Positions 1,869 through 63,551 of a DNA stretch of 64,000 nt are shown one piece after another (position 1 is the first letter of the stretch; each line of letters starts with the position of its first letter). The DNA is taken from assembly GCA_020161775.1 (NCBI GenBank), contig JAIUOW010000014.1, forward strand, positions 1-64,000. Direction: 5' to 3'. The notes beneath the pieces were generated by a model that saw only the letters and a list, made by a program, of their open reading frames with translations, searched no databases and had not been told where the DNA came from. A program made the position numbers and the translations under genes. Source of the stretch: Pseudomonadota bacterium. GTDB lineage: Bacteria; Pseudomonadota; Gammaproteobacteria; Burkholderiales; Burkholderiaceae_C.

Positions 1869-3269
1869 CTACTTCGGCGCTTTCTTCGGCCGTTCCCAGT
1901 TGGCCACGCTGATCTGCTTGCCCCGCGCCACGCTCAGTGCGCCCGCCGGTGTGTCCTTGGTGATGGTGGAGCCGCCGCCCACTGTGCCGCCCGCGCCTAT
2001 CGTCACCGGTGCCACCAGCACGCAGTTGCTGCCCACGTGCACGTCGGCCTCGATCACCGTGCGGTGCTTGTTGGCGCCGTCGTAATTGGCGGTGATGCTG
2101 CCCGCGCCGTAGTTCACGCGCTCGCCCACCGTGGCGTCGCCCAGGTAGGCCAGGTGGTTGGCCTTGGCGCCGGCAGCCAGCGTTGAGTTTTTCACCTCTA
2201 CAAAGTTGCCGATGTGTACCTCGGCACCCAGCTGGGCGCCGGGGCGCAGCCGGGCAAACGGGCCCACCAGCGCGCCCTCGCCCACGCGCACGCCGGCTTT
2301 TTCGCCGTCGATGTGGGTAAAGGGATGGATCACCGCGCCGGCCAGAATCGTGGCGTTGGCGATGACGCAGTTGGCGCCGATGCGCACGCCGTCGCCCAAT
2401 GACACGCTGCCTTCAAACACGCAGTTCACGTCAATTTCCACGTCCTGCCCGCAGCTCAGCGTGCCGCGCACGTCCAGCCGCGCCGGGTCGGCCAGGCGCA
2501 CGCCGTGGTCCATCAGCGTGCGCGCGTGGCGCAGCTGGTAGGCACGCTCCAGCTCGGCCAGCTGCACGGGGCTGTTCACGCCGTCCACCTGCACCTTGTC
2601 GGGCGTTTTGGTGGCCACCACGTCGGCGCCGTCGGCCACCGCAAATTTCACGATGTCGGTCAGGTAGTACTCGCCCTGGCTGTTGTCGTTGGTGAGGCGC
2701 GCCAGCCAGCGTTTGAGCAGCGCGGCGGGCAGCGCCATCACCCCGGTGTAGATCTCGCGTATCTGGCGTTGCTGGGCGTCGGCATCCTTGTGCTCCACGA
2801 TGGCCAGCACGGCGTCGCCGCTGCGGATGATGCGCCCGTAGCCCGACGGGTCGGGCATGTCCACCGTCAGCAGCGCCAGGCGCTTGCCCGCGCAGTCGGT
2901 GATCAGCCCGCGCAGCGTGGCGGCTTCGATCAGCGGCACGTCGCCGTTCAGTATCAGGGCAATGCCGTCGTCGGGCAGCGCGGGCACGGCCTGCTGCACC
3001 GCGTGGCCGGTGCCCAGCTGCGGCTCCTGGCGCACAAACACCGGTGGCGTGGCGCCCGCGGCGGCGGCGGAGCGCGTCAGCGCGGCTTCCACTTCGGGTG
3101 CGCCGTGGCCGGTGATCACCACCACGTGGCGGGCTTTCAGCCCCGCGGCGGTGTCTATTACATGCTGGACCAGCGCACGGCCGGCCAATCGGTGCAACAC
3201 TTTGGGCAGCCGGCTTTTCATGCGGGTGCCCTTGCCGGCGGCCATGATCACTACATCCACTGCTGTCAT
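1869..3269 (-). CDS. glmU: Bifunctional UDP-N-acetylglucosamine pyrophosphorylase / glucosamine-1-phosphate N-acetyltransferase
   Basis: A 466-residue cytoplasmic enzyme making UDP-GlcNAc for peptidoglycan and LPS in two steps: acetylation of glucosamine-1-phosphate, then uridylyl transfer. The N-terminal nucleotidyltransferase domain (about 1-235) opens with VVIMAAGKGTRMKS and PKVLH, and has LNGDVPL and EYYLTD. From about residue 260 the hexapeptide repeats of the left-handed beta helix follow, with NHLAYLGDATVG and NYDGANKHRT in the acetyl-CoA site. Length matches the family (about 456). The ATG at 3269 directly precedes the nucleotide-binding loop; earlier in-frame codons run into the divergent lipoprotein gene, whose start is only 18 bases away. 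Confidence 0.97.
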   Translation of the reverse strand: MTAVDVVIMAAGKGTRMKSRLPKVLHRLAGRALVQHVIDTAAGLKARHVVVITGHGAPEVEAALTRSAAAAGATPPVFVRQEPQLGTGHAVQQAVPALPDDGIALILNGDVPLIEAATLRGLITDCAGKRLALLTVDMPDPSGYGRIIRSGDAVLAIVEHKDADAQQRQIREIYTGVMALPAALLKRWLARLTNDNSQGEYYLTDIVKFAVADGADVVATKTPDKVQVDGVNSPVQLAELERAYQLRHARTLMDHGVRLADPARLDVRGTLSCGQDVEIDVNCVFEGSVSLGDGVRIGANCVIANATILAGAVIHPFTHIDGEKAGVRVGEGALVGPFARLRPGAQLGAEVHIGNFVEVKNSTLAAGAKANHLAYLGDATVGERVNYGAGSITANYDGANKHRTVIEADVHVGSNCVLVAPVTIGAGGTVGGGSTITKDTPAGALSVARGKQISVANWERPKKAPK

Positions 3270-3287
3270 ACGGGAATCTCCTGCACC

Positions 3288-4163
3288 ATGGCGATCTTTA
3301 CCAAACTGATGCGGATTATCGGCCTGCCGGCCATGGCGGGCGCACTCACGGCGTGCAGCGCCGTGAAGATGGGTTACAGCGCGCTGCCCGAGCTGGCCTT
3401 CTGGCGGCTGGACGCCTACCTGGACTTTGACGACACCCAGGCCGCGCAGGTGCGCGAGCGGCTGGCCAAGCTGCACCAGTGGCACCGCAGCCACGAGCTG
3501 CCACGCTACGCCGCGCTGCTGGAGCAGGCCGAGCGGCTGGCGCCCGGCGACATCACGCCGGCGCAGGCCTGCAGCCTGCTGGATCAGTTGCGCGAACGCA
3601 TGGCCGCCGTGGCGCGCCATGCCGAGCCGGCCATGGCCGCCACCGCCGCCAGCCTGACGGCCGCGCAGCTGCGGCACCTGCAAAAGCACTACGCCCGCAC
3701 CGACGACGAATGGCGCCGCGACTGGCTGGATGCGCCCGCGGGCGCCGTGCAGCAGCGGCGCCTCAAGCAGCTGACCGAACGCGCCGAGATGATTTACGGC
3801 ACGCTGGACGACGCGCAGCGCGCCGTGCTGCAACGCACGGTGGAGCAGGCGGTGTTTGATGCGCGCGCGGCCCTGGCCGAGCGCCAGCGCCGCCAGCAGG
3901 ACGCGCTGGACACCCTGCGCAGCATCACCGCCGCGCCGGGCCTGCCGGCCGCACAGGCGCGCGCGGCGCTGCGCGGCTACCTGCAGCGCTCGCTGGAGTC
4001 ACCCGACGCGGCCTGGCGCGCCAGGCGCGACGCCTGGCAGCAGGAGATGTGCCGCGGTTTTGCCGCGCTGCATGCGGGCACCACGGCGGCGCAGCGTGAA
4101 GCCGCCGTGCGGCGGCTGCGCGCCTACCAGCGCGACCTGCAGGAGCTGGCCGCCGCGCCCTGA
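3288..4163 (+). CDS. DUF6279-type lipoprotein
   Basis: A 291-residue predicted lipoprotein. The signal sequence ends in the lipobox LTAC, with the lipidated Cys at 23. The remainder is almost entirely helical and rich in Ala, Arg, Glu and Gln, with the conserved opening YSALPELAFWRLDAYLDFDD typical of the DUF6279 family; function unknown. An internal ATG at 3309 would leave a shorter but still usable signal peptide. It shares a very short divergent intergenic region with glmU, so promoter elements must overlap the other gene's coding sequence. Confidence 0.85.
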   Translation: MAIFTKLMRIIGLPAMAGALTACSAVKMGYSALPELAFWRLDAYLDFDDTQAAQVRERLAKLHQWHRSHELPRYAALLEQAERLAPGDITPAQACSLLDQLRERMAAVARHAEPAMAATAASLTAAQLRHLQKHYARTDDEWRRDWLDAPAGAVQQRRLKQLTERAEMIYGTLDDAQRAVLQRTVEQAVFDARAALAERQRRQQDALDTLRSITAAPGLPAAQARAALRGYLQRSLESPDAAWRARRDAWQQEMCRGFAALHAGTTAAQREAAVRRLRAYQRDLQELAAAP

Positions 4164-11418: not shown

Positions 11419-11461
11419 GCACCTGACACGTTTTGGACGCTCCTGACAGCGGTTGACACCC

Positions 11462-12445
11462 ATGCAGCATTCCCAGACCCACCTGCGCAGCCGCCCCATC
11501 TCGGCCGGCCATCTGCGCGCCTTCGAGGCCGTGGCGCGGCACCTGAACTTCCGCGCCGCGTCGGAAGAAATGGCGCTGACGCAGTCGGCCGTCAGCCGCC
11601 AGATCCAGTCGCTGGAGGAAGAAGTGGGCGTGCCGCTGTTCCTGCGGCACACGCGCGCGGTAGAGCTGACCAGCGCCGGCGCCCAGCTGCTGATGGCCGT
11701 GACGCAGGCGCTGCCGCGCATTGACAGCGCGGTGCGCCAGATCCGCCAGAGCGCCGGGCGCAAGAGCGTGGCGCTGACCACCTTCGCCTCGTTTGCGTCG
11801 ATGTGGCTGATCCCGCGGCTGGAGGCCTTCCAGCACGACAACCCCGACATCGACATCCGCATTGATGCGTCCGACAACGCGCTGGACCTGGACGTGGCCG
11901 ACGTGGACCTGGCCCTGCGCTACGGCCCGGTGGCCAGCATGCCGCCCAATGCCATACGCATGTTTGGCGAGCAGCTGACCCCGGTGGCCAGCCCCTGGCT
12001 GATCAAGAGCGGCGCCCCGCTGAAAAAGCCCGAGGACCTGGCGAACTTTGCCTTGATCGAGGCGGGCGACGCCCACCACACCCACCTGGAATGGCTGACC
12101 TGGCGCCGCTGGTTCGACGAGCGCGGCCTGCCCAAGCAGCAGGCCAAGCGCTGGCTGTTCTTCAACTACGCCTACCAGATGGTGCAGGCGGCGCTGACCG
12201 GCCAGGGGGTGGTGCTGGCCCGCTTGCCGCTGGTGGCGGAAAGCCTGGCGAACGGGGATTTGATTGAGGTGCTGCCGGGGCAGCGCATGGATTCACCGAT
12301 GGCCTATTGGCTGCTGGTGGGGCCGCGCAGTGCGCAGCGGCCGGAGATCAAGGCGTTTTGTGCTTGGCTTATGGCGCAGAGCAAGGCGACGCGGGAAACG
12401 ATTGGGGAGGTGCCGGATCCGGATACTGTGGATGACATGGACTGA
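11462..12445 (+). CDS. LysR-family regulator, GcvA-like
   Basis: A 327-residue regulator. The N-terminal winged helix (about 12-72) has HLRAFEAVARHLNFRAASEE and LTQSAVSRQIQSLEEEVGVP; the rest is the two-lobed inducer-binding domain with TFASFASMWLIPRLEAF, the pattern of the GcvA/AmpR branch. The ATG at 11462 is preferred to the TTG at 11453. The T-N11-A palindrome 44 bases upstream and the divergent DUF2917 gene point to a local regulatory pair. The effector is unknown. Confidence 0.93.
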   Translation: MQHSQTHLRSRPISAGHLRAFEAVARHLNFRAASEEMALTQSAVSRQIQSLEEEVGVPLFLRHTRAVELTSAGAQLLMAVTQALPRIDSAVRQIRQSAGRKSVALTTFASFASMWLIPRLEAFQHDNPDIDIRIDASDNALDLDVADVDLALRYGPVASMPPNAIRMFGEQLTPVASPWLIKSGAPLKKPEDLANFALIEAGDAHHTHLEWLTWRRWFDERGLPKQQAKRWLFFNYAYQMVQAALTGQGVVLARLPLVAESLANGDLIEVLPGQRMDSPMAYWLLVGPRSAQRPEIKAFCAWLMAQSKATRETIGEVPDPDTVDDMD

Positions 12446-12472
12446 TCTCTCTTTGTTTTTGTTTTGTTGGTG

Positions 12473-12829
12473 GTTGATAGACCTCTGTTTTCCCCCCTAT
12501 CCCCCCCGCCCCCTTTCACCCCCGCCGGGGTGAAAGGGGGAGCCTGGATTCTGGTGCTGGTCTCCGGCTAACTGAAGAATCGGGGTGGCGCTGCGGTGCG
12601 CCCCAGGTCCGCCACGGCCCATGCCTGCTGTTGGGGCAGTGGCTGACAAACCAGATGGCCACCGCCCCAACAGCAGGCATGGGCCGTGGTGTGTATGGGT
12701 GTATCGCAGCCTCACCCCGATTCTTCAGGCGTCCGGCGCGCTGAAATCAAATCAGGGCTCCCCCTTTCACCCCGGCGGGGGTGAAAGGGGGCGGGGGGGG
12801 GATAGGGGGGAAAACAGAGGTCTATCAAC
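12473..12829. repeat. 357-bp nested palindrome, copy 1
   Basis: The intergenic region between LysR and the cyclo-ligase gene is one large imperfect palindrome. The outer arms begin GTTGATAGACCTCTGTTTTC and end in the reverse complement at 12829. Each arm carries its own hairpin, CCCCCTTTCACCCC with GGGGTGAAAGGGGG. Next in are GAAGAATCGGGGTG and CACCCCGATTCTTC, and at the centre a near-perfect 32-bp stem (from CCACGGCCCATGCCTGC) around TGACAAACCAGATG. A second copy lies at 17782-18136. It contains long C and G runs and no believable gene. The 409-base gap holds nothing else. Confidence 0.9.
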
Positions 12830-12854
12830 AACCAAAAAAAACAAGAAAAGAAAT

Positions 12855-13439
12855 TCAGACCGGCCAAACCACCCCGTTGTCATTCAAGATCGCATCCAGC
12901 GGCACATCATGGTCCTCCGGTTCCAGCTCCGGCAAAAACCCGTTGGTAAACCCCAGCCCCACCGTAAACGGCCGAGGTTGCAAGGACGCCAGGGTCCGGT
13001 CATAAAACCCACCCCCATACCCCAGCCGGTACCCCCCAGGCCCATACCCCACGCAAGGCACGAACAGCAAGGTCGGCACGATGATCTCGGTGTCCTTGGG
13101 CTTGGGGATGCCGTAGGCGTCTTCTTCCATCGGGCAGCCCGGGTACCAGGCATGGAAGGTCAGCGTCTTGTGCAGCTTGTCCACCACCGGCAGGCCGATG
13201 CGGCGCAGCGCCGGTTCGTCCAGCAGCTCGCCGTCTTCCTTCCAGCGGTGCAGCGCCGGCAGCGGGTCAAATTCGCCCTTGATGGGCCAGTAGGCGCCGA
13301 TCATGGTGTCGGCTCGGCCCACCAGCCAGATGCGCATGACCCGTTGCAGCAGGTCGGCGCGCTCCAGGCGGTCCGGCAGGTTCAGGCGGGCCTCGATGAG
13401 CGCCTTGCGTAAAGACCTTTTTTCCTCTGACGTGTCCAT
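12855..13439 (-). CDS. 5-formyltetrahydrofolate cyclo-ligase
   Basis: A 194-residue enzyme (5-FCL/YgfA/MTHFS family) that converts 5-formyl-THF and ATP to 5,10-methenyl-THF, clearing a dead-end folate. N-terminal basic helix KRSLRKALIEARLNL, then ATP and substrate motifs IVPTLLFVPCVGYGPGG and RLGYGGGFYDRTLA, which is the family signature. Length is normal. Its start codon is only nine bases from that of the divergent Slt gene, so the 5' leaders overlap. Confidence 0.93.
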   Translation of the reverse strand: MDTSEEKRSLRKALIEARLNLPDRLERADLLQRVMRIWLVGRADTMIGAYWPIKGEFDPLPALHRWKEDGELLDEPALRRIGLPVVDKLHKTLTFHAWYPGCPMEEDAYGIPKPKDTEIIVPTLLFVPCVGYGPGGYRLGYGGGFYDRTLASLQPRPFTVGLGFTNGFLPELEPEDHDVPLDAILNDNGVVWPV

Positions 13440-13448
13440 AATGCCCAG

Positions 13449-15476
13449 ATGCAGTTTCGAACCATTCTGACATTGATCGCGGCTGTGGTCGCCTGCGGCG
13501 CGCAGGCGCAGCCGCGCGGCGACGACCTGCTCCTGGACATGCACCAGGCCTACAAGCGCGGCGACACGCGCAAGCTCACGCAAATGCTGCCCCAGTTGCG
13601 CGGCCACGCACTGGAGCCCTGGGCCGCCTACTGGGAGCTGCGCGCGCGGCTGGACAGCGCCAGCGTGCAGGAAATCCAGGACTTCCTGACGCGCTGGGCC
13701 GGCACCTACCAGGAAGACCGCCTGCGCAACGACTGGCTGCTGATGCTGGGCCAGCGGCGAGACTGGACCACTTTTGAGGCCGAATACCCGAAATTCCGCA
13801 TGAACGACGACCGCGAGGTGCGCTGCTATGCCCTGCTGGTGCAGCACCTGACCCAGGGCGCGGCCGCGCCGGCCACGCTGGCCGGCGAGGTGCGGCGCAA
13901 CTGGTATGCCCAGCGCGACGCCGACGACGGCTGTGCCCATGCGGCCAGCCGCCTGATCGGCGAGCGCGACGGCGCCCGCCGTACCGGCAATGCCACCGGC
14001 ATGACCGTGCAGGACGCCTGGGTCAAGGCCCGCCTGGCCACCGAGGCCAACCGCCCGCGCGCGGCGACCAAGGCGGTGGAAATCGTCTCGCCCGAATCCC
14101 TGCCGCTGGTGGCCGAGCTGAACGCCAGCCCGGTGAAGTTCCTGACATCGCGTGTTACCGCGGCGTCCAAAGTCCGCAAGGAACTCATCACGCTGGCGCT
14201 CATCAAGCTGGCCGTGGGCGACGCCGAAGGCGCCGCGCGCCAGCTGGACAGCAAATGGGGCCCGCAGCTCAGCGCCGAGGAGCGCAACTGGGTCTGGGGC
14301 GTGATCGGCAAGCAGGCCGCCAGCAAGCTGTCCAGTGACGCCCTGGGTTACTACGCCAACGTCAGCCGCGACAGCGACCTGTCCGACGACATGCTGGGCT
14401 GGAAGGTGCGCGCCGCCCTGCGCGCGGGCAACCAGCCGCGCTGGGCCGATGTGCTGTCGGCCGTGAACGGCATGAGCGACGAAGCCCAGCGCGACCCCAC
14501 CTGGACGTACTGGAAGGCCCGCGCCCTGCTAGCGACTGCCGCCAACCCCTCAGACAAACGCACCGAAGCCCTGGTGCTGCTCGAACGCATTGCCTCGCCG
14601 CGCGGCTTTTACGAACAGCTGGCGCTGGAGGAACTGGGCCGCAAGATCACCGCGCCCGAACGGCCCCAGCCGCTGACGGCGGAAGAAAAAGACGCCGCCC
14701 GGATGAACCCCAGCCTGAACCGGGGGCTGTACGCCATTGCCATCGGCCTGCGGCCCGAAGGCGTGCGCGAGTGGAACTACGCCACCAACCTGCACAAGAG
14801 CGGCGGCATGACCGACCGCGAGCTGCTGGCCGCGGCGCAGTTTGCCTGCGACCGCGAGGTGTGGGACCGCTGCATCAACACCAGCGAGCGCACCCGCGAC
14901 GTGGTGGACGTGGAGCAGCGCTTTCCCATGCCGTTCCGTGAATCGGTGGTGCGCCGCAGCCGCGAGATCGCGCTGGACCCGGCCTATGTGTATGGCCTGA
15001 TCCGCCAGGAAAGCCGCTTCATCATGGACGCCCGCTCGCACGTGGGCGCATCGGGCCTGATGCAGGTCATGCCCGCCACCGCGCGCTGGACGGCGCGCAA
15101 GATTGGCCTGGCCAACTTCACCGCCGACCAGATCAACGACCGCGAAACCAACATCGCCATCGGCACCGGCTACCTCAAGCTGGTGCTGGATGACTTTGAC
15201 GGCTCCATGCCGCTGGCCGCCGCCGCCTACAACGCCGGCCCCGGGCGCCCGCGCAGCTGGCGCGCGCCCGGCGGCACCGGCCCGGTGCTGGAAGGCGCGG
15301 CCTGGGCCGAGAACGTGCCCTTCAATGAAACGCGCGACTACGTGAAGAAGGTGGTGTCCAACACCACCATGTACGCGGCCATCCTGACCGGCCAGCCGCA
15401 ATCATTGAAGGCCCGCATGGGCACCGTGGGCCCGCGCGATGCGTCCCGGCCCGAACCCAACCGTGACCTGCCCTGA
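13449..15476 (+). CDS. slt: Soluble lytic murein transglycosylase
   Basis: A 675-residue periplasmic enzyme that cleaves peptidoglycan between MurNAc and GlcNAc with formation of 1,6-anhydro ends. A signal peptide (about 1-20, VVACGAQAQ) precedes a long superhelical region of paired helices (about 25-480) and a C-terminal SLT lysozyme-like domain with catalytic Glu521 in GLIRQESRF, followed by GASGLMQVMPATARW and the AAAAYNAGPG block. Domain order and length match Slt70. Divergent from the cyclo-ligase gene with nearly no intergenic space. Confidence 0.95.
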   Translation: MQFRTILTLIAAVVACGAQAQPRGDDLLLDMHQAYKRGDTRKLTQMLPQLRGHALEPWAAYWELRARLDSASVQEIQDFLTRWAGTYQEDRLRNDWLLMLGQRRDWTTFEAEYPKFRMNDDREVRCYALLVQHLTQGAAAPATLAGEVRRNWYAQRDADDGCAHAASRLIGERDGARRTGNATGMTVQDAWVKARLATEANRPRAATKAVEIVSPESLPLVAELNASPVKFLTSRVTAASKVRKELITLALIKLAVGDAEGAARQLDSKWGPQLSAEERNWVWGVIGKQAASKLSSDALGYYANVSRDSDLSDDMLGWKVRAALRAGNQPRWADVLSAVNGMSDEAQRDPTWTYWKARALLATAANPSDKRTEALVLLERIASPRGFYEQLALEELGRKITAPERPQPLTAEEKDAARMNPSLNRGLYAIAIGLRPEGVREWNYATNLHKSGGMTDRELLAAAQFACDREVWDRCINTSERTRDVVDVEQRFPMPFRESVVRRSREIALDPAYVYGLIRQESRFIMDARSHVGASGLMQVMPATARWTARKIGLANFTADQINDRETNIAIGTGYLKLVLDDFDGSMPLAAAAYNAGPGRPRSWRAPGGTGPVLEGAAWAENVPFNETRDYVKKVVSNTTMYAAILTGQPQSLKARMGTVGPRDASRPEPNRDLP

Positions 15477-15493
15477 GGGCCGGGGTACACAGC

Positions 15494-16018
15494 ATGGACA
15501 TCCCCTGGTGGCAGGTCATTGGCCAGACGGTGGCCTCTGAATTCTCGGACGTGCCCGACCTGGCGCAGGCCACGCGCATCGTGCTGCGCCTGATGCTGGC
15601 CGCGCTGCTGGGCGGGCTGCTGGGCCTGGAACGCGAAAACAAGGGCAAGGCCGCGGGCGTGCGCACCCACATGCTGGTGGCCATGGGCGCGGCCCTGTTT
15701 GTGCTGATCCCGCAGCAGGCGGGCATCGTGCCGGCCGACCTGAGCCGCGTGATCCAGGGCGTGGTGGCCGGCATCGGCTTCCTGTGCGCGGGCAGCATTT
15801 TGAAAAGCGAAGACGAAGACCGCGTGCGCGGCCTGACCACCGCCGCCGGCATGTGGCTCACGGCGGCCATCGGCATGGCCGCCGGCCTGGGCCGCGAGGC
15901 CACTGCGGTCATCAGCACCGTGCTGGCACTGGTGATCCTGTCGCTGGTGCCGGTGGTGGTCAAGGCCATCGAGAAGCCCGAACCCCGAACCCTCCTGTCA
16001 GACGAACCCAAAAAATGA
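15494..16018 (+). CDS. MgtC/SapB-family membrane protein
   Basis: A 174-residue inner-membrane protein with four hydrophobic helices and the family signature LLGGLLGLERENKGKAAGVRTHMLV, then GVVAGIGFLCAGSIL and GLTTAAGMWLTAAIGMAAG. Relatives include virulence-linked MgtC, but most chromosomal members have no known role. A short hydrophilic C-terminal tail follows. Its stop overlaps the next ATG (ATGA), so it is translationally coupled to the NDUFA9-like reductase. Confidence 0.92.
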   Translation: MDIPWWQVIGQTVASEFSDVPDLAQATRIVLRLMLAALLGGLLGLERENKGKAAGVRTHMLVAMGAALFVLIPQQAGIVPADLSRVIQGVVAGIGFLCAGSILKSEDEDRVRGLTTAAGMWLTAAIGMAAGLGREATAVISTVLALVILSLVPVVVKAIEKPEPRTLLSDEPKK

Positions 16019-16956
16019 CACGCATCCTGATCCTGGGCGGCACCGGCTTCGTGGGCCGCCATGTGTGCGAAAAGCTCGCCCGGCTGCAACACCCCGTGAC
16101 GGTGGCCACGCGCCGCCTGGCCAACGCGCGCCACCTGACCACGCTGCCCCTGCTGCACACGGTGGAATGCGACGTGCACGACGAAGCCGCCCTGACGCGG
16201 CTGGTGACGGGCCATGACGCGGTGGTGAACCTGGTGGCCATCCTGCACGGCACCGGGGCGGCCTTCCAGCGCGCCCATGTGGAGTTGCCGCAAAAGCTGG
16301 CCCGCGCCTGCGCCGCCACCGGCGTGCACCGCGTGGTGCACGTGAGCGCGCTGGGCGCCGCGCCCGGTGCGGCGTCGCTGTACCAGCGCAGCAAGGCCGC
16401 CGGCGAACAGGCGCTGCAGGCCGCCGGGCTGCAACTCACGGTGCTGCGCCCCAGCGTGATCTTTGGCGCCGAGGACCAGTTCCTGAACCTGTTTGCGCGG
16501 CTGCAGCGGGTATTTCCCGTCATGCCGCTGGCCGGCGCACAGGCGCGCTTCCAGCCGGTGTGGGTGGAGGACGTGGCCCAGGCCGTGGTGCATGCGTTGC
16601 AGCAGCCCGGCACCGCAGGCCAGGTGTTTGAAGCCTGCGGCCCCGATGTCTTCACCCTGCGCGAGCTGGTGCAGCTGGCCGGCCGCCATGCGGGCTGTGC
16701 GCGGCCCGTGCTGCCCCTGCCCATGGCGCTGGGCCGGCTGCAGGCCCTGCTGATGGAGCTGGCCCCCGGCGAGCCGCTGATGAGCCGTGACAACCTGGCC
16801 GCCATGCAGACCGATAACATCGCCAGCGGTGCCCTGCCTGGCCTGCAGGCGCTGGACATTGCGCCCGCGGCGCTGGAGGCCGTAGCACCGCTCTATTTGC
16901 GCCCCCGCGGCGTGAACGACGGGCTGGACCGCTACCGGCGCACCGCCGGCCGCTGA
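16015..16956 (+). CDS. NAD(P)-binding atypical SDR, NDUFA9-like
   Basis: A 313-residue protein of the extended/atypical short-chain dehydrogenase class. The Rossmann motif ILGGTGFVGRHV is at residues 7-18; VNLVAIL, VHVSALGA and YQRSKAAGEQAL follow. The family resembles the complex I accessory subunit NDUFA9, but bacterial copies outside nuo operons are usually annotated only as NAD(P)H-binding proteins. No catalytic substrate is known. It is the last gene of the mgtC unit and is followed by a hairpin with a T run. Confidence 0.9.
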   Translation: MTRILILGGTGFVGRHVCEKLARLQHPVTVATRRLANARHLTTLPLLHTVECDVHDEAALTRLVTGHDAVVNLVAILHGTGAAFQRAHVELPQKLARACAATGVHRVVHVSALGAAPGAASLYQRSKAAGEQALQAAGLQLTVLRPSVIFGAEDQFLNLFARLQRVFPVMPLAGAQARFQPVWVEDVAQAVVHALQQPGTAGQVFEACGPDVFTLRELVQLAGRHAGCARPVLPLPMALGRLQALLMELAPGEPLMSRDNLAAMQTDNIASGALPGLQALDIAPAALEAVAPLYLRPRGVNDGLDRYRRTAGR

Positions 16957-16970
16957 GCAGCCCTGGCCAC

Positions 16971-17004
16971 AAAAAAACACCGGCATCAATTCCGGCGCTT
17001 TTTT
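16971..17004 (+). terminator. Rho-independent terminator after the NDUFA9-like gene
   Basis: CCGG at 16980-16983 and CCGG at 16992-16995 form the core stem, extended by the A run on the left pairing with the T run on the right, with two mismatches. Six T residues (16999-17004) follow. It lies 14 bases past the stop codon. Confidence 0.6.
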
Positions 17005-17061
17005 GCATCAATCGCCGCGGCGCGCGAGCTTAGCATGCGGTCACTTTCAACGGAGACACCC

Positions 17062-17748
17062 ATGCTCACCCTGTACATCGGCAACAAGAACTACTCGTCC
17101 TGGTCCATGCGCCCCTGGGTCCTGCTCAAGCAGGCCGGCATTCCTTTCAAGGAAGTGATGGTGCGCTTTGACGCGTTCAATTCGCCTGATTCCGATTTCA
17201 AGCGCGCCGTCCTGGCGGTCAACCCCGCCGGCCGGGTACCGGTGCTGGTGGACGACGGCTTTGCGGTGTGGGACACGCTGGCCATTGCCGAATACGTGGC
17301 CGAGAAATTCCCCGACAAAAGGCTCTGGCCGCAGGACGCCCAGGCCCGCGCCCGTGCGCGCAGCGTCTGCGCCGAAATGCATTCGGGCTTTGGCGCCTTG
17401 CGCAATGCCTGCCCGATGAACATCGAAGCCCAGCTGGCCACGGCGGGCGCCATTGCCTGGCGCGACCAGGCCGCGGTGCGCGCCGACGTGCAGCGCATCA
17501 TCGACATGTGGACGCAGCTGCTGGAAGCACACAAGGGCCCGATGCTGTTTGGCGAATTCACCATTGCCGACGCGTACTACGCCCCGGTGTGCATGCGCAT
17601 CCGCAACTACGCCCTGCCCGTGCCCGGCCACATCACAGACTACATCCGCCGCGTGTGTGCGCTGCCGGGTGTGAAGGCGTGGATGGATGATGCGCTGGCT
17701 GAAAAAGACTTCATTGACTTTGACGAGCCTTACCGGATTTCGAGATGA
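17062..17748 (+). CDS. Glutathione S-transferase family protein
   Basis: A 228-residue cytosolic protein. The N-terminal thioredoxin-like domain (1-80) opens LTLYIGNKNYSSWSMRPWVL; the Ser pair in NYSSWS is at the glutathione-activating position, and NPAGRVPVLVDDGFAVWDTLAI includes the conserved cis-proline and the glutathione-binding Asp. The all-helical C-terminal domain follows. GGAG at 17052-17055 supports the ATG at 17062. Substrate unknown. It is followed by the second copy of the large palindrome. Confidence 0.93.
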   Translation: MLTLYIGNKNYSSWSMRPWVLLKQAGIPFKEVMVRFDAFNSPDSDFKRAVLAVNPAGRVPVLVDDGFAVWDTLAIAEYVAEKFPDKRLWPQDAQARARARSVCAEMHSGFGALRNACPMNIEAQLATAGAIAWRDQAAVRADVQRIIDMWTQLLEAHKGPMLFGEFTIADAYYAPVCMRIRNYALPVPGHITDYIRRVCALPGVKAWMDDALAEKDFIDFDEPYRISR

Positions 17749-17781
17749 GCTTTTTGGGTTTGGTTTTTGTTTTGGTTGGTT

Positions 17782-18136
17782 GTTCATAGACCTCTGTTTT
17801 CCCCCCTATCCCCCCCGCCCCCTTTCACCCCCGCCGGGGTGAAAGGGGGAGCCTGGATCCTGAAGTTGGCCTCCGGCGAGCTGAAGAATCGGGGTGGCGC
17901 TGCGGTACGCATCAGGTCCGCCACGGCCCTTGCCTGCAGTTGGGGCAGTGGCTGACAAACCAGATGGCCACCGCCCCAACTGCAGGCATGGGCCGTGGTG
18001 TGCATGGGTGTATCGCAGCCTCACCCCGATTCTTCAGGTGTCCGGCGCGCTGAAATCAAATCAGGGCTCCCCCTTTCACCCCGGCGGGGGTGAAAGGGGG
18101 CGGGGGGGATAGGGGGGAAAACAGAGGTCTATGAAC
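17782..18136. repeat. 355-bp nested palindrome, copy 2
   Basis: Nearly identical to the element at 12473-12829, with the same outer arms, arm hairpins, internal GAAGAATCGGGGTG pair and central stem-loop TGACAAACCAGATG. Differences that fall in stems tend to be paired: the outer arm has GTTCATAG/CTATGAAC here against GTTGATAG/CTATCAAC in copy 1, and the central stem has CTGCAG/CTGCAG against CTGCTG/CAGCAG. It fills the 443-base gap between the GST gene and cca. No gene is seen within it. Confidence 0.9.
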
Positions 18137-18191: not shown

Positions 18192-19442
18192 ATGCAAATC
18201 TACCGAGTCGGCGGCGCAGTCAGAGATGCCCTGCTGGGCCACCCCGTCAACGACCACGACTGGGTCGTCGTGGGCGCGACGCCCGAAGAGCTGATGCAGC
18301 AGGGCTACCTGCCCGTGGGCAAGGACTTCCCCGTCTTCCTGCACCCGAAAACCAAAGAGGAATACGCGCTGGCCCGCACCGAGCGCAAGACGGCGCGCGG
18401 CTACCAGGGCTTTGCCATCCATGCCGACCCCGGCGTCACGCTGGAGCAGGACCTGGCGCGGCGCGACCTGACCATCAATGCGATTGCGCAGGCCGCTGGC
18501 GCCACCGGCCATGAGGGCCTGGTGGACCCGTACGGCGGCCAGCGCGACCTGAAGGCGCGCGTGCTGCGCCATGTCACGGACTCTTTCGGCGAAGACCCTG
18601 TGCGCATCCTGCGCCTGGCGCGCTTTGCCGCGCGGCTGGACGGCTTTACCGTGGCGCCGGAAACCATGGCGCTCATGAAGCACATGGTGGACGACGGCGA
18701 GGTGGATGCGCTGGTGGCCGAGCGCGTGTGGCAGGAGCTGGCGCGGGGGCTGATGGCGCCCCGGCCATCGCGCATGTTCGAGGTGCTGCGCGAATGCGGC
18801 GCGCTGGCGCGGCTGCTGCCCGAGGTAGACCGCCTGTGGGGCGTGCCGCAGCGGCCCGAATACCACCCCGAGGTGGACACCGGCGTGCACCTGATGATGG
18901 TGCTGGACATGAGCGCGCAGCTGCAGGCGCCGCTGGCCACGCGCTTTGCCTGCCTGGGCCACGACCTGGGCAAGGGCACCACGCCCGCCGACGTGCTGCC
19001 ACGCCACATCGGCCACGAAGAGCGCAGCGCGCGGCTGCTGCGCGGCGTGTGCGAACGCCTGCGTGTGCCGGTGGAATGCCGCGAGCTGGCGGACGTGGTG
19101 GCGCGCGAACACGGCAACATCCACCGCAGCGGCGGCTTCAACGCGGCGGCACTGGTGCGGCTGCTGGAGCGCTGCGACGCGCTGCGCAAGCCCGACCGGT
19201 TTGCCCAGGTGCTGCTAGCCTGCGAATGCGACGCGCGCGGCCGCCTGGGCCTGCAGGACAGCCCCTACCCGCAGCGCCCCCGGCTGCTGGCGGCGCTGGC
19301 GGCGGCGCAGTCCGTCGTGACCGCCGTGATTGCACAACAGGCAGCAGACGCCGGCGCCAGGGGCCCGCAGGTGGGCGAGAAGATCCACCGTGCGCGCGTG
19401 GCCGCCGTGGCCGCCGCGCTGCCCACGGGCTTGTCCGACTGA
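18192..19442 (+). CDS. cca: Multifunctional CCA-adding tRNA nucleotidyltransferase / HD phosphohydrolase
   Basis: A 416-residue enzyme that adds and repairs the 3' CCA of tRNAs. The class II nucleotidyltransferase head opens QIYRVGGAVRDALLGHPVND with the catalytic DxD as DHD (28-30 region), then RRDLTINAIA and the RILRLARFAARL tRNA-binding block. The C-terminal HD domain (about 225-330) shows CLGHDLGKGTTP, as in the long proteobacterial Cca proteins that also have phosphatase and phosphodiesterase activity. E. coli Cca is 412 residues. The start follows 55 bases after palindrome copy 2. Confidence 0.96.
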   Translation: MQIYRVGGAVRDALLGHPVNDHDWVVVGATPEELMQQGYLPVGKDFPVFLHPKTKEEYALARTERKTARGYQGFAIHADPGVTLEQDLARRDLTINAIAQAAGATGHEGLVDPYGGQRDLKARVLRHVTDSFGEDPVRILRLARFAARLDGFTVAPETMALMKHMVDDGEVDALVAERVWQELARGLMAPRPSRMFEVLRECGALARLLPEVDRLWGVPQRPEYHPEVDTGVHLMMVLDMSAQLQAPLATRFACLGHDLGKGTTPADVLPRHIGHEERSARLLRGVCERLRVPVECRELADVVAREHGNIHRSGGFNAAALVRLLERCDALRKPDRFAQVLLACECDARGRLGLQDSPYPQRPRLLAALAAAQSVVTAVIAQQAADAGARGPQVGEKIHRARVAAVAAALPTGLSD

Positions 19443-63397: not shown

Positions 63398-63463
63398 GGT
63401 CACTCCAGAAAATGAATGTTGTGAACCACTGTCTGTGAAAGGAACTCACCACACGGGACAGTG

Positions 63464-63544
63464 GGTGAGCGTCGTTGCGGGGTTGGAATCCGAGCCTCAC
63501 GCCGTGCATCTGGGTAGATGGGGGCGCTGCAACGCTCCTCGGAA
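63464..63544 (-). ncRNA. SAH riboswitch upstream of ahcY
   Basis: Read on the minus strand the region starts CCGAGGAGCGTTGC and ends GCAACGACGCTC. CCGAG pairs with CTCGG at 63490-63494 (in GTGAGGCTCGG), and GAGCG/GTTGC pair with CGCTC/GCAAC to form the long-range (pseudoknot) helix characteristic of the SAH riboswitch of Beta- and Gammaproteobacteria. Binding of SAH turns expression on. The aptamer starts at the expected transcription start, about seven bases after a TATAAT box, and lies 70 bases before the ahcY ATG. Confidence 0.85.
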
Positions 63545-63551
63545 TGGCGAA

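Follow-up and report, generated by a model that had tools for sequence, protein, structure and literature searches.

Twin nested palindromes of an apparently undescribed repeat family in Comamonadaceae bacteria

The twin elements and their end units

Two intergenic palindromes, nearly alike and 5.3 kb apart, lie in the window (the whole 64,000-nucleotide stretch of DNA analysed here) and raise the question of what kind of element they are and how their two halves came to match. A preliminary description had reported twin elements with common outer arms, arm hairpins, a 32-nt central stem and the same loop, which was borne out by alignment and by self-complementarity. The first element, el1, spans 12473..12828 and the second, el2, 17781..18136, neither with a strand; both were delimited by self-complementarity, by their match to each other (94% identity; alignment, query 1-388) and by folding. 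Complementarity in el1 dwindles through T/G-rich and A/C-rich tails, reaching about 12456-12845. Over its full length el1 matches its own reverse complement at 80.6% and el2 at 82.2%. In each, outer arms with C- and G-runs, one 32-nt self-complementary hairpin per arm, enclose a central stem-loop, at 12612..12689 in el1 (arms 12612-12643 and 12658-12689, 97% complementary) and at 17921..17998 in el2 (arms 17921-17952 and 17967-17998, 94% complementary), again with no strand assigned; the 14-nt central loop is the same in both. Predicted single-strand folding energies are -340.5 kcal/mol for el1 and -350.2 kcal/mol for el2, with z about -27 each, none of 100 dinucleotide shuffles reaching native stability. 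As had been noted before, no credible coding sequence was seen inside either element, and Rfam at gathering score gave no match at el1 or el2. Elsewhere in the window, at 63460-63546 on the minus strand, there is a match to the SAH riboswitch (Rfam RF01057, 56.8 bits).

Both elements also lie, as first described, just behind a plus-strand gene: a LysR-type regulator (11453..12445) ends upstream of el1 and a glutathione S-transferase-like gene (17035..17748) upstream of el2. The former element stands between convergent genes, as a 5-formyltetrahydrofolate cyclo-ligase gene on the minus strand (12855..13440; start approximate, the open frame being longer) faces it, and the latter between tandem genes, with a plus-strand gene of the CCA-adding enzyme/poly(A) polymerase family (18192..19442) downstream.

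What the two have in common with elements elsewhere is a 68-nt end unit, for which a model, R1, was built from 48 of 59 distinct units. In el1 it is found at 12485..12552 on the minus strand (79.9 bits; hairpin 12509-12540) and at 12748..12816 on the plus strand (80.5 bits; hairpin 12760-12791), and in el2 at 17794..17861 on the minus strand (77.0 bits; hairpin 17818-17849) and at 18057..18124 on the plus strand (82.6 bits; hairpin 18069-18100).

Distribution and make-up of the family

By these end units, el1 and el2 belong to an apparently undescribed repeat family in Comamonadaceae bacteria; no earlier description of it was recognised in the PMC open-licence literature searched. The search of the genome and its relatives that the preliminary description had proposed yielded three further copies in the source genome (L015, L016 and L017), far more diverged than el1 and el2 are from each other, and 10 end units there in total. 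Among 399 genomes of the taxonomic family, with at most 12 candidates scored per genome, 61 match R1 at E<=0.001 and 24, in 16 genera, at E<1e-8. In one genus (g162), 45 of 89 genomes match at E<=1e-8, the richest with 40 matches (57 candidates scored per genome). At the level of the order, 250 genomes gave, source genome apart, only weak matches (38-44 bits), in 9 of them, which lie outside the taxonomic family. An exact pattern run over 84,980 species found 70 stretches, whose group-naming titles are Rhodoferax, Hylemonella, Curvibacter, Comamonas, Comamonadaceae, Burkholderiales or beta-proteobacteria, besides three vaguer or odd MAG labels. As far as seen, the family is restricted to Comamonadaceae-type bacteria. 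No match was obtained for el1 in plasmid records, for the L067 element in phage records or for one exact pattern in IMG/VR, and Rfam at a relaxed E-value returned nothing credible for eight family loci. A widespread repeat family is thus defined, and it is present in records of culturable relatives (Rhodoferax, Hylemonella, Curvibacter). Contigs often stop in or near elements (L066, L069, L071, L082, L088, L089), so short-read assemblies probably undercount the copies.

In each element, two 68-nt end units in inverted orientation flank an interior that varies. The fetched loci hold 281 units, of which 45 (40 distinct) are single, 11 of these lying within 500 nt of a locus end; the others make up 118 inverted pairs, 108 of them distinct in sequence, with a median span of 363 bp (5-95%, 281-506). 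Ten more pairs were found beyond these, and another 26, all short, came from 20 extra regions searched for gene-carrying pairs. Judged against 12 shuffles each, 61 of the 108 interiors have a folding z-score better than -3, the other 47 falling short of it (folding z-scores were used in place of an arm-identity shuffle control, which spread widely), so that the full-length palindrome is not a family-wide trait, and the complete palindrome of el1 and el2 is one end of a range. In 9 of 108 elements, complementarity of the outer arms past the end unit exceeds the 99% null, which counts for copying between the arms. Two end types occur, in every combination.

Gene orientation was examined around 111 elements, of which 80 were classifiable: 61 tandem, 15 convergent and 4 divergent, as against 126, 50 and 54 among 230 control intergenic regions. 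Divergent regions are avoided (4/80 vs 54/230; Fisher P 1e-4), and this placement behind genes would be expected if insertions in promoters were selected against.

Several loci hold further repeats. Smaller, known-looking repeats are nested in the interiors of L071, L067 and L072 (GTCATTCCCGC...GCGGGAATCCAG; CTGAGCTTGTCGAAG), and another intergenic repeat, roughly TTTTTGGCCTCTAGCGCTTATTTATAAGCGCTAGCAGCTAT, stands beside several elements of G161 (flanks of L121, L118, L119 and L251). In G268, L088 and L089 are both interrupted by a common end containing TTATCCGTAAATA, probably that of another insertion sequence. At L081 (2476-2680) a right and a left end unit lie in reversed order, 70 nt apart, with arm sequence outside, as if turned inside out. 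An apparent inversion between L087 and L124, both of G191, was dropped, as the same 70-nt flank that abuts both palindromes is the end of an IS3-type insertion sequence, an IS3-type orfA-like frame coming next in L087; this insertion sequence seems to favour these palindromes.

Paired change in the end hairpin and in the long arms

The preliminary description had proposed a covariation test, and in the end hairpin its outcome is strong. Over the 48 of 59 distinct units, 97.5% of cells are paired vs 87.3% after shuffling, and two-sided changes occur at 10 of 15 pairs, with 69 double-change cells vs 16.3 in shuffles; the hairpin is kept up by paired change. Read from inside to outside, its wobbles number 69 G-T vs 12 A-C cells, and G-T mismatches occur in 59 and A-C mismatches in 11 of 96 distinct end hairpins, a bias that common descent inflates, as does a unit finder with a heavier penalty on A-C than on G-T. 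This one-strand bias points to a role of the hairpin in single-stranded form.

The long arms behave otherwise. From el1 to el2, 153 of the 165 pairs predicted in el1 are unchanged, 10 are changed on one side, of which 4 can still pair and 6 cannot, and 2 on both sides, the latter both by transversions. Changes in the stems had been called often paired. The two quoted cases are indeed in the alignment and exceed the chance expectation of about 0.05 (independent arm mutation, Watson-Crick pairs only), but with 2 of 12 changed pairs the word was too strong. In 12 close pairs (11 ortholog pairs plus el1/el2, chosen from 67 for the same interior orientation and high identity), double Watson-Crick changes again exceed expectation (14 vs 6.0, P 0.004), about half of them being transversions, and are outnumbered by single-arm changes. 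Single-arm transitions, counted in both directions, gave 127 G-U and 120 A-C, so pairing in the arms is not protected on this time scale, which argues against selection for an RNA stem; a surplus of double changes in which transversions are common is in keeping with arm-to-arm copying. Arm homogenisation with inversion of the spacer, and the production of compensatory changes, are both described as outcomes of template switching (PMC8604942 and PMC8794818, respectively). The arms share changes slightly above chance, and we favour the view that the matched long arms are a product of arm-to-arm copying rather than of RNA selection, although paired changes exceed expectation only modestly and most changes affect a single arm. 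Of the explanations first offered for paired change (RNA, a DNA cruciform or repair copying), copying is thus preferred for the long arms, and upkeep of a hairpin only for the 68-nt end unit. Paired changes in long hairpins can mislead in this way: close relatives show mostly one-sided arm mutation without G-U preference, and covariation alone would wrongly have pointed to RNA.

We consider it unlikely, accordingly, that the elements encode or act as a structured RNA, be it a large hairpin RNA or a stabiliser or terminator-like structure at 3' ends, with the paired changes as selected compensations. Several observations would suit such an RNA: (i) the very stable folds (-340.5 and -350.2 kcal/mol), (ii) the position behind the 3' ends of genes with avoidance of divergent regions, (iii) the covarying end hairpin, with wobbles that are G-U on one strand, and (iv) the mismatched arm positions of the five own-genome copies, which sum to 54 G-U vs 26 A-C with the copies oriented by eye and shared ancestry contributing. 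They are countered by the 127:120 ratio among single-arm transitions in the close pairs, by the lack of an Rfam match in nine sources (the window and eight loci), and by the finding that, on either strand of an element, one of its two end hairpins is the A-C version. An interior that is inverted at some orthologous sites, as set out below, would moreover alter the transcript.

Probable movement, known systems and gene-carrying copies

With flanks as anchors, 66 ortholog pairs with both flanks in common were obtained. Copies appear and vanish at orthologous sites. The site of L117 (genus g162) is filled in G161 and empty in all 11 relatives inspected, which were chosen for closely spaced flanks; at L121, one site (A) lacks an intact element in all 8 relatives inspected (seven without any, one with a truncated copy) and the other (B) is empty in 8 of 8. 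Truncated copies occur in G443 and G667. Since intergenic DNA is too diverged, empty sites cannot give the exact ends of an element, and the check for target-site duplications suggested earlier found none: in 108 elements there is no direct-repeat excess at any offset for k 4-10. The junction of addB and addA bears an element in 8 genomes; several of the interiors there show no similarity to one another yet resemble those at other loci of their own lineage, and L189/L217 and L141/L213 share theirs. Interior homology is clear in 22 ortholog pairs, and in 8 of them (about 6 independent loci) the interior runs in opposite directions when the flanks are aligned. Three of these 8 pairs (2 loci) have unequal end types whose order has stayed the same, which means that the interior alone has turned there.

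On balance, we think it somewhat probable that el1 and el2 are recent copies of a non-autonomous, REPIN/MITE-like mobile element whose arms have been partly homogenised and whose interiors are flipped by arm-to-arm copying. An enzyme encoded elsewhere would recognise the end hairpin in single-stranded form, more likely as DNA than as RNA, and move the element. Changes would be copied from one arm to the other, and the interior turned, by template switching in replication or by recombination between arms; no host function for the element would be needed. Evidence for movement comes from el1 and el2 themselves, 94% alike while the other copies of their genome are much diverged, and from the empty sites at L117 and L121. 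Against mobility, the same intergenic sites are filled across genera, as at addB-addA in 8 genomes, and could perhaps be old and fixed. The elements would then be essentially immobile sites, palindromic only through template switching and empty only by deletion, a history that the orthologous positions across genera, the truncated copies in G443 and G667 and the template-switching literature (PMC8604942, PMC8794818) would fit. We nevertheless rate it as rather improbable, given the 94% likeness of el1 and el2 at different loci, the genus-specific interiors common to unlinked loci, and the L117 site, where one species has an element and none of the 11 relatives inspected does.

The searches made found no mobilising enzyme, nor did any of them give a match to a known MITE or REP family with a described transposase, which the preliminary description had named as grounds for abandoning its view. 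No transposase lies between the units of three long-span pairs, and none was recognised among the ORFs beside 12 single units, judged without a profile search. One candidate would be a host RAYT (Y1 transposase) mobilising the palindromes as strict REPINs, whose plan is the same: an inverted doublet of hairpin units around a less conserved but pairable spacer, with compensatory changes, in intergenic DNA and with singlets as likely remnants, as described for REPINs and REP-BIMEs in PMC3116915. The RAYT-like profile PF01797 matches in 292 of 399 genomes of the taxonomic family, in 22 of the 24 with strong units vs 270 of the other 375 (Fisher P 0.03), a weak link that counts mildly for RAYT. 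By contrast, a simple pattern search placed no end unit within about 1.5 kb on either side of 13 PF01797 genes, and no convincing CGTC/GTAG-type hairpin was seen near RAYT genes; units are also present without a PF01797 match in G191, a 92% complete genome with at least 10 pairs, and in G040 (74% complete). A REP hairpin bears a GTAG or CGTC tag at its foot (PMC3733652), which is absent from the consensus of 48 units, although GTAG occurs outside the C-run in some copies of one genus. The family unit is 68 nt long with a C-run/G-run arm and the element mostly ~280-506 bp, against about 100 for the REPINs of PMC3116915. Its copies number 5 to a few tens per genome instead of over 100, interiors are inverted and some copies carry genes. 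We therefore regard strict REPINs as distinctly unlikely.

Bacterial MITEs, as in the example of PMC10969869, are likewise short, non-coding and dispersed, with inverted ends and presence or absence between relatives; here, however, no target duplication or parental transposon was found, and a hairpin sits inside each end. The Beta-proteobacterial repeat element BRE, as described in PMC3110155, is also a GC-rich intergenic repeat, listed in Comamonadaceae among others, but is 75-91 bp long, tandem (VNTR) and described from Bordetella, with no inverted pairs in that account; it is set apart by description only. With no unit adjoining any of 13 PF01797 genes and no match in G191, we hold that the family works like a REPIN or MITE but file it as neither.

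Three pairs are longer and span genes. In L101 (2.6 kb) there are ORFs of 221 and 374 aa, with no Pfam, NCBIfam or PHROG match and a non-significant PADLOC match; L126 (2.7 kb) holds a 160-aa ORF and a 533-aa ABC-ATPase/phosphatase fusion; and L250 (953 bp) holds an isochorismatase-family gene. Beyond the right arm of this last pair, at 2505-3310, an antitoxin-like frame (a small frame, assigned from reading the sequence) and a PIN-domain gene are followed by a second right arm in the same orientation as the first, a stretch looking like a second cassette. GC content of the cargo is below that of both flanks in L101 (0.49 vs 0.66/0.60), L126 (0.61 vs 0.71/0.72) and L250 (0.53-0.55 vs 0.59/0.60). 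The genes are either carried by the elements or have landed in them as preferred sites. Integron gene cassettes have an attC site, one site rather than two inverted ends. Like them, the two gene blocks of L250 each precede a same-oriented structured right arm, and the antitoxin/PIN pair and the isochorismatase gene are cassette-like cargo; unlike them, the family elements have two inverted ends, and no GTTRRRY was seen by eye at the ends of L250. Tentatively, and with considerable doubt, the palindromes might be the ends of a new kind of mobile gene cassette, in which hairpin arms recognised as single strands would hold one or two blocks of genes, lose or swap them and collapse to empty giant hairpins such as el1 and el2, all through the action of an enzyme encoded elsewhere. 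Mobility of the cargo-bearing copies, if real, would make them an unrecognised route of gene transfer between Comamonadaceae. In L126, the outer arms are complementary for about 108 nt past the unit, with at most 2 mismatches.
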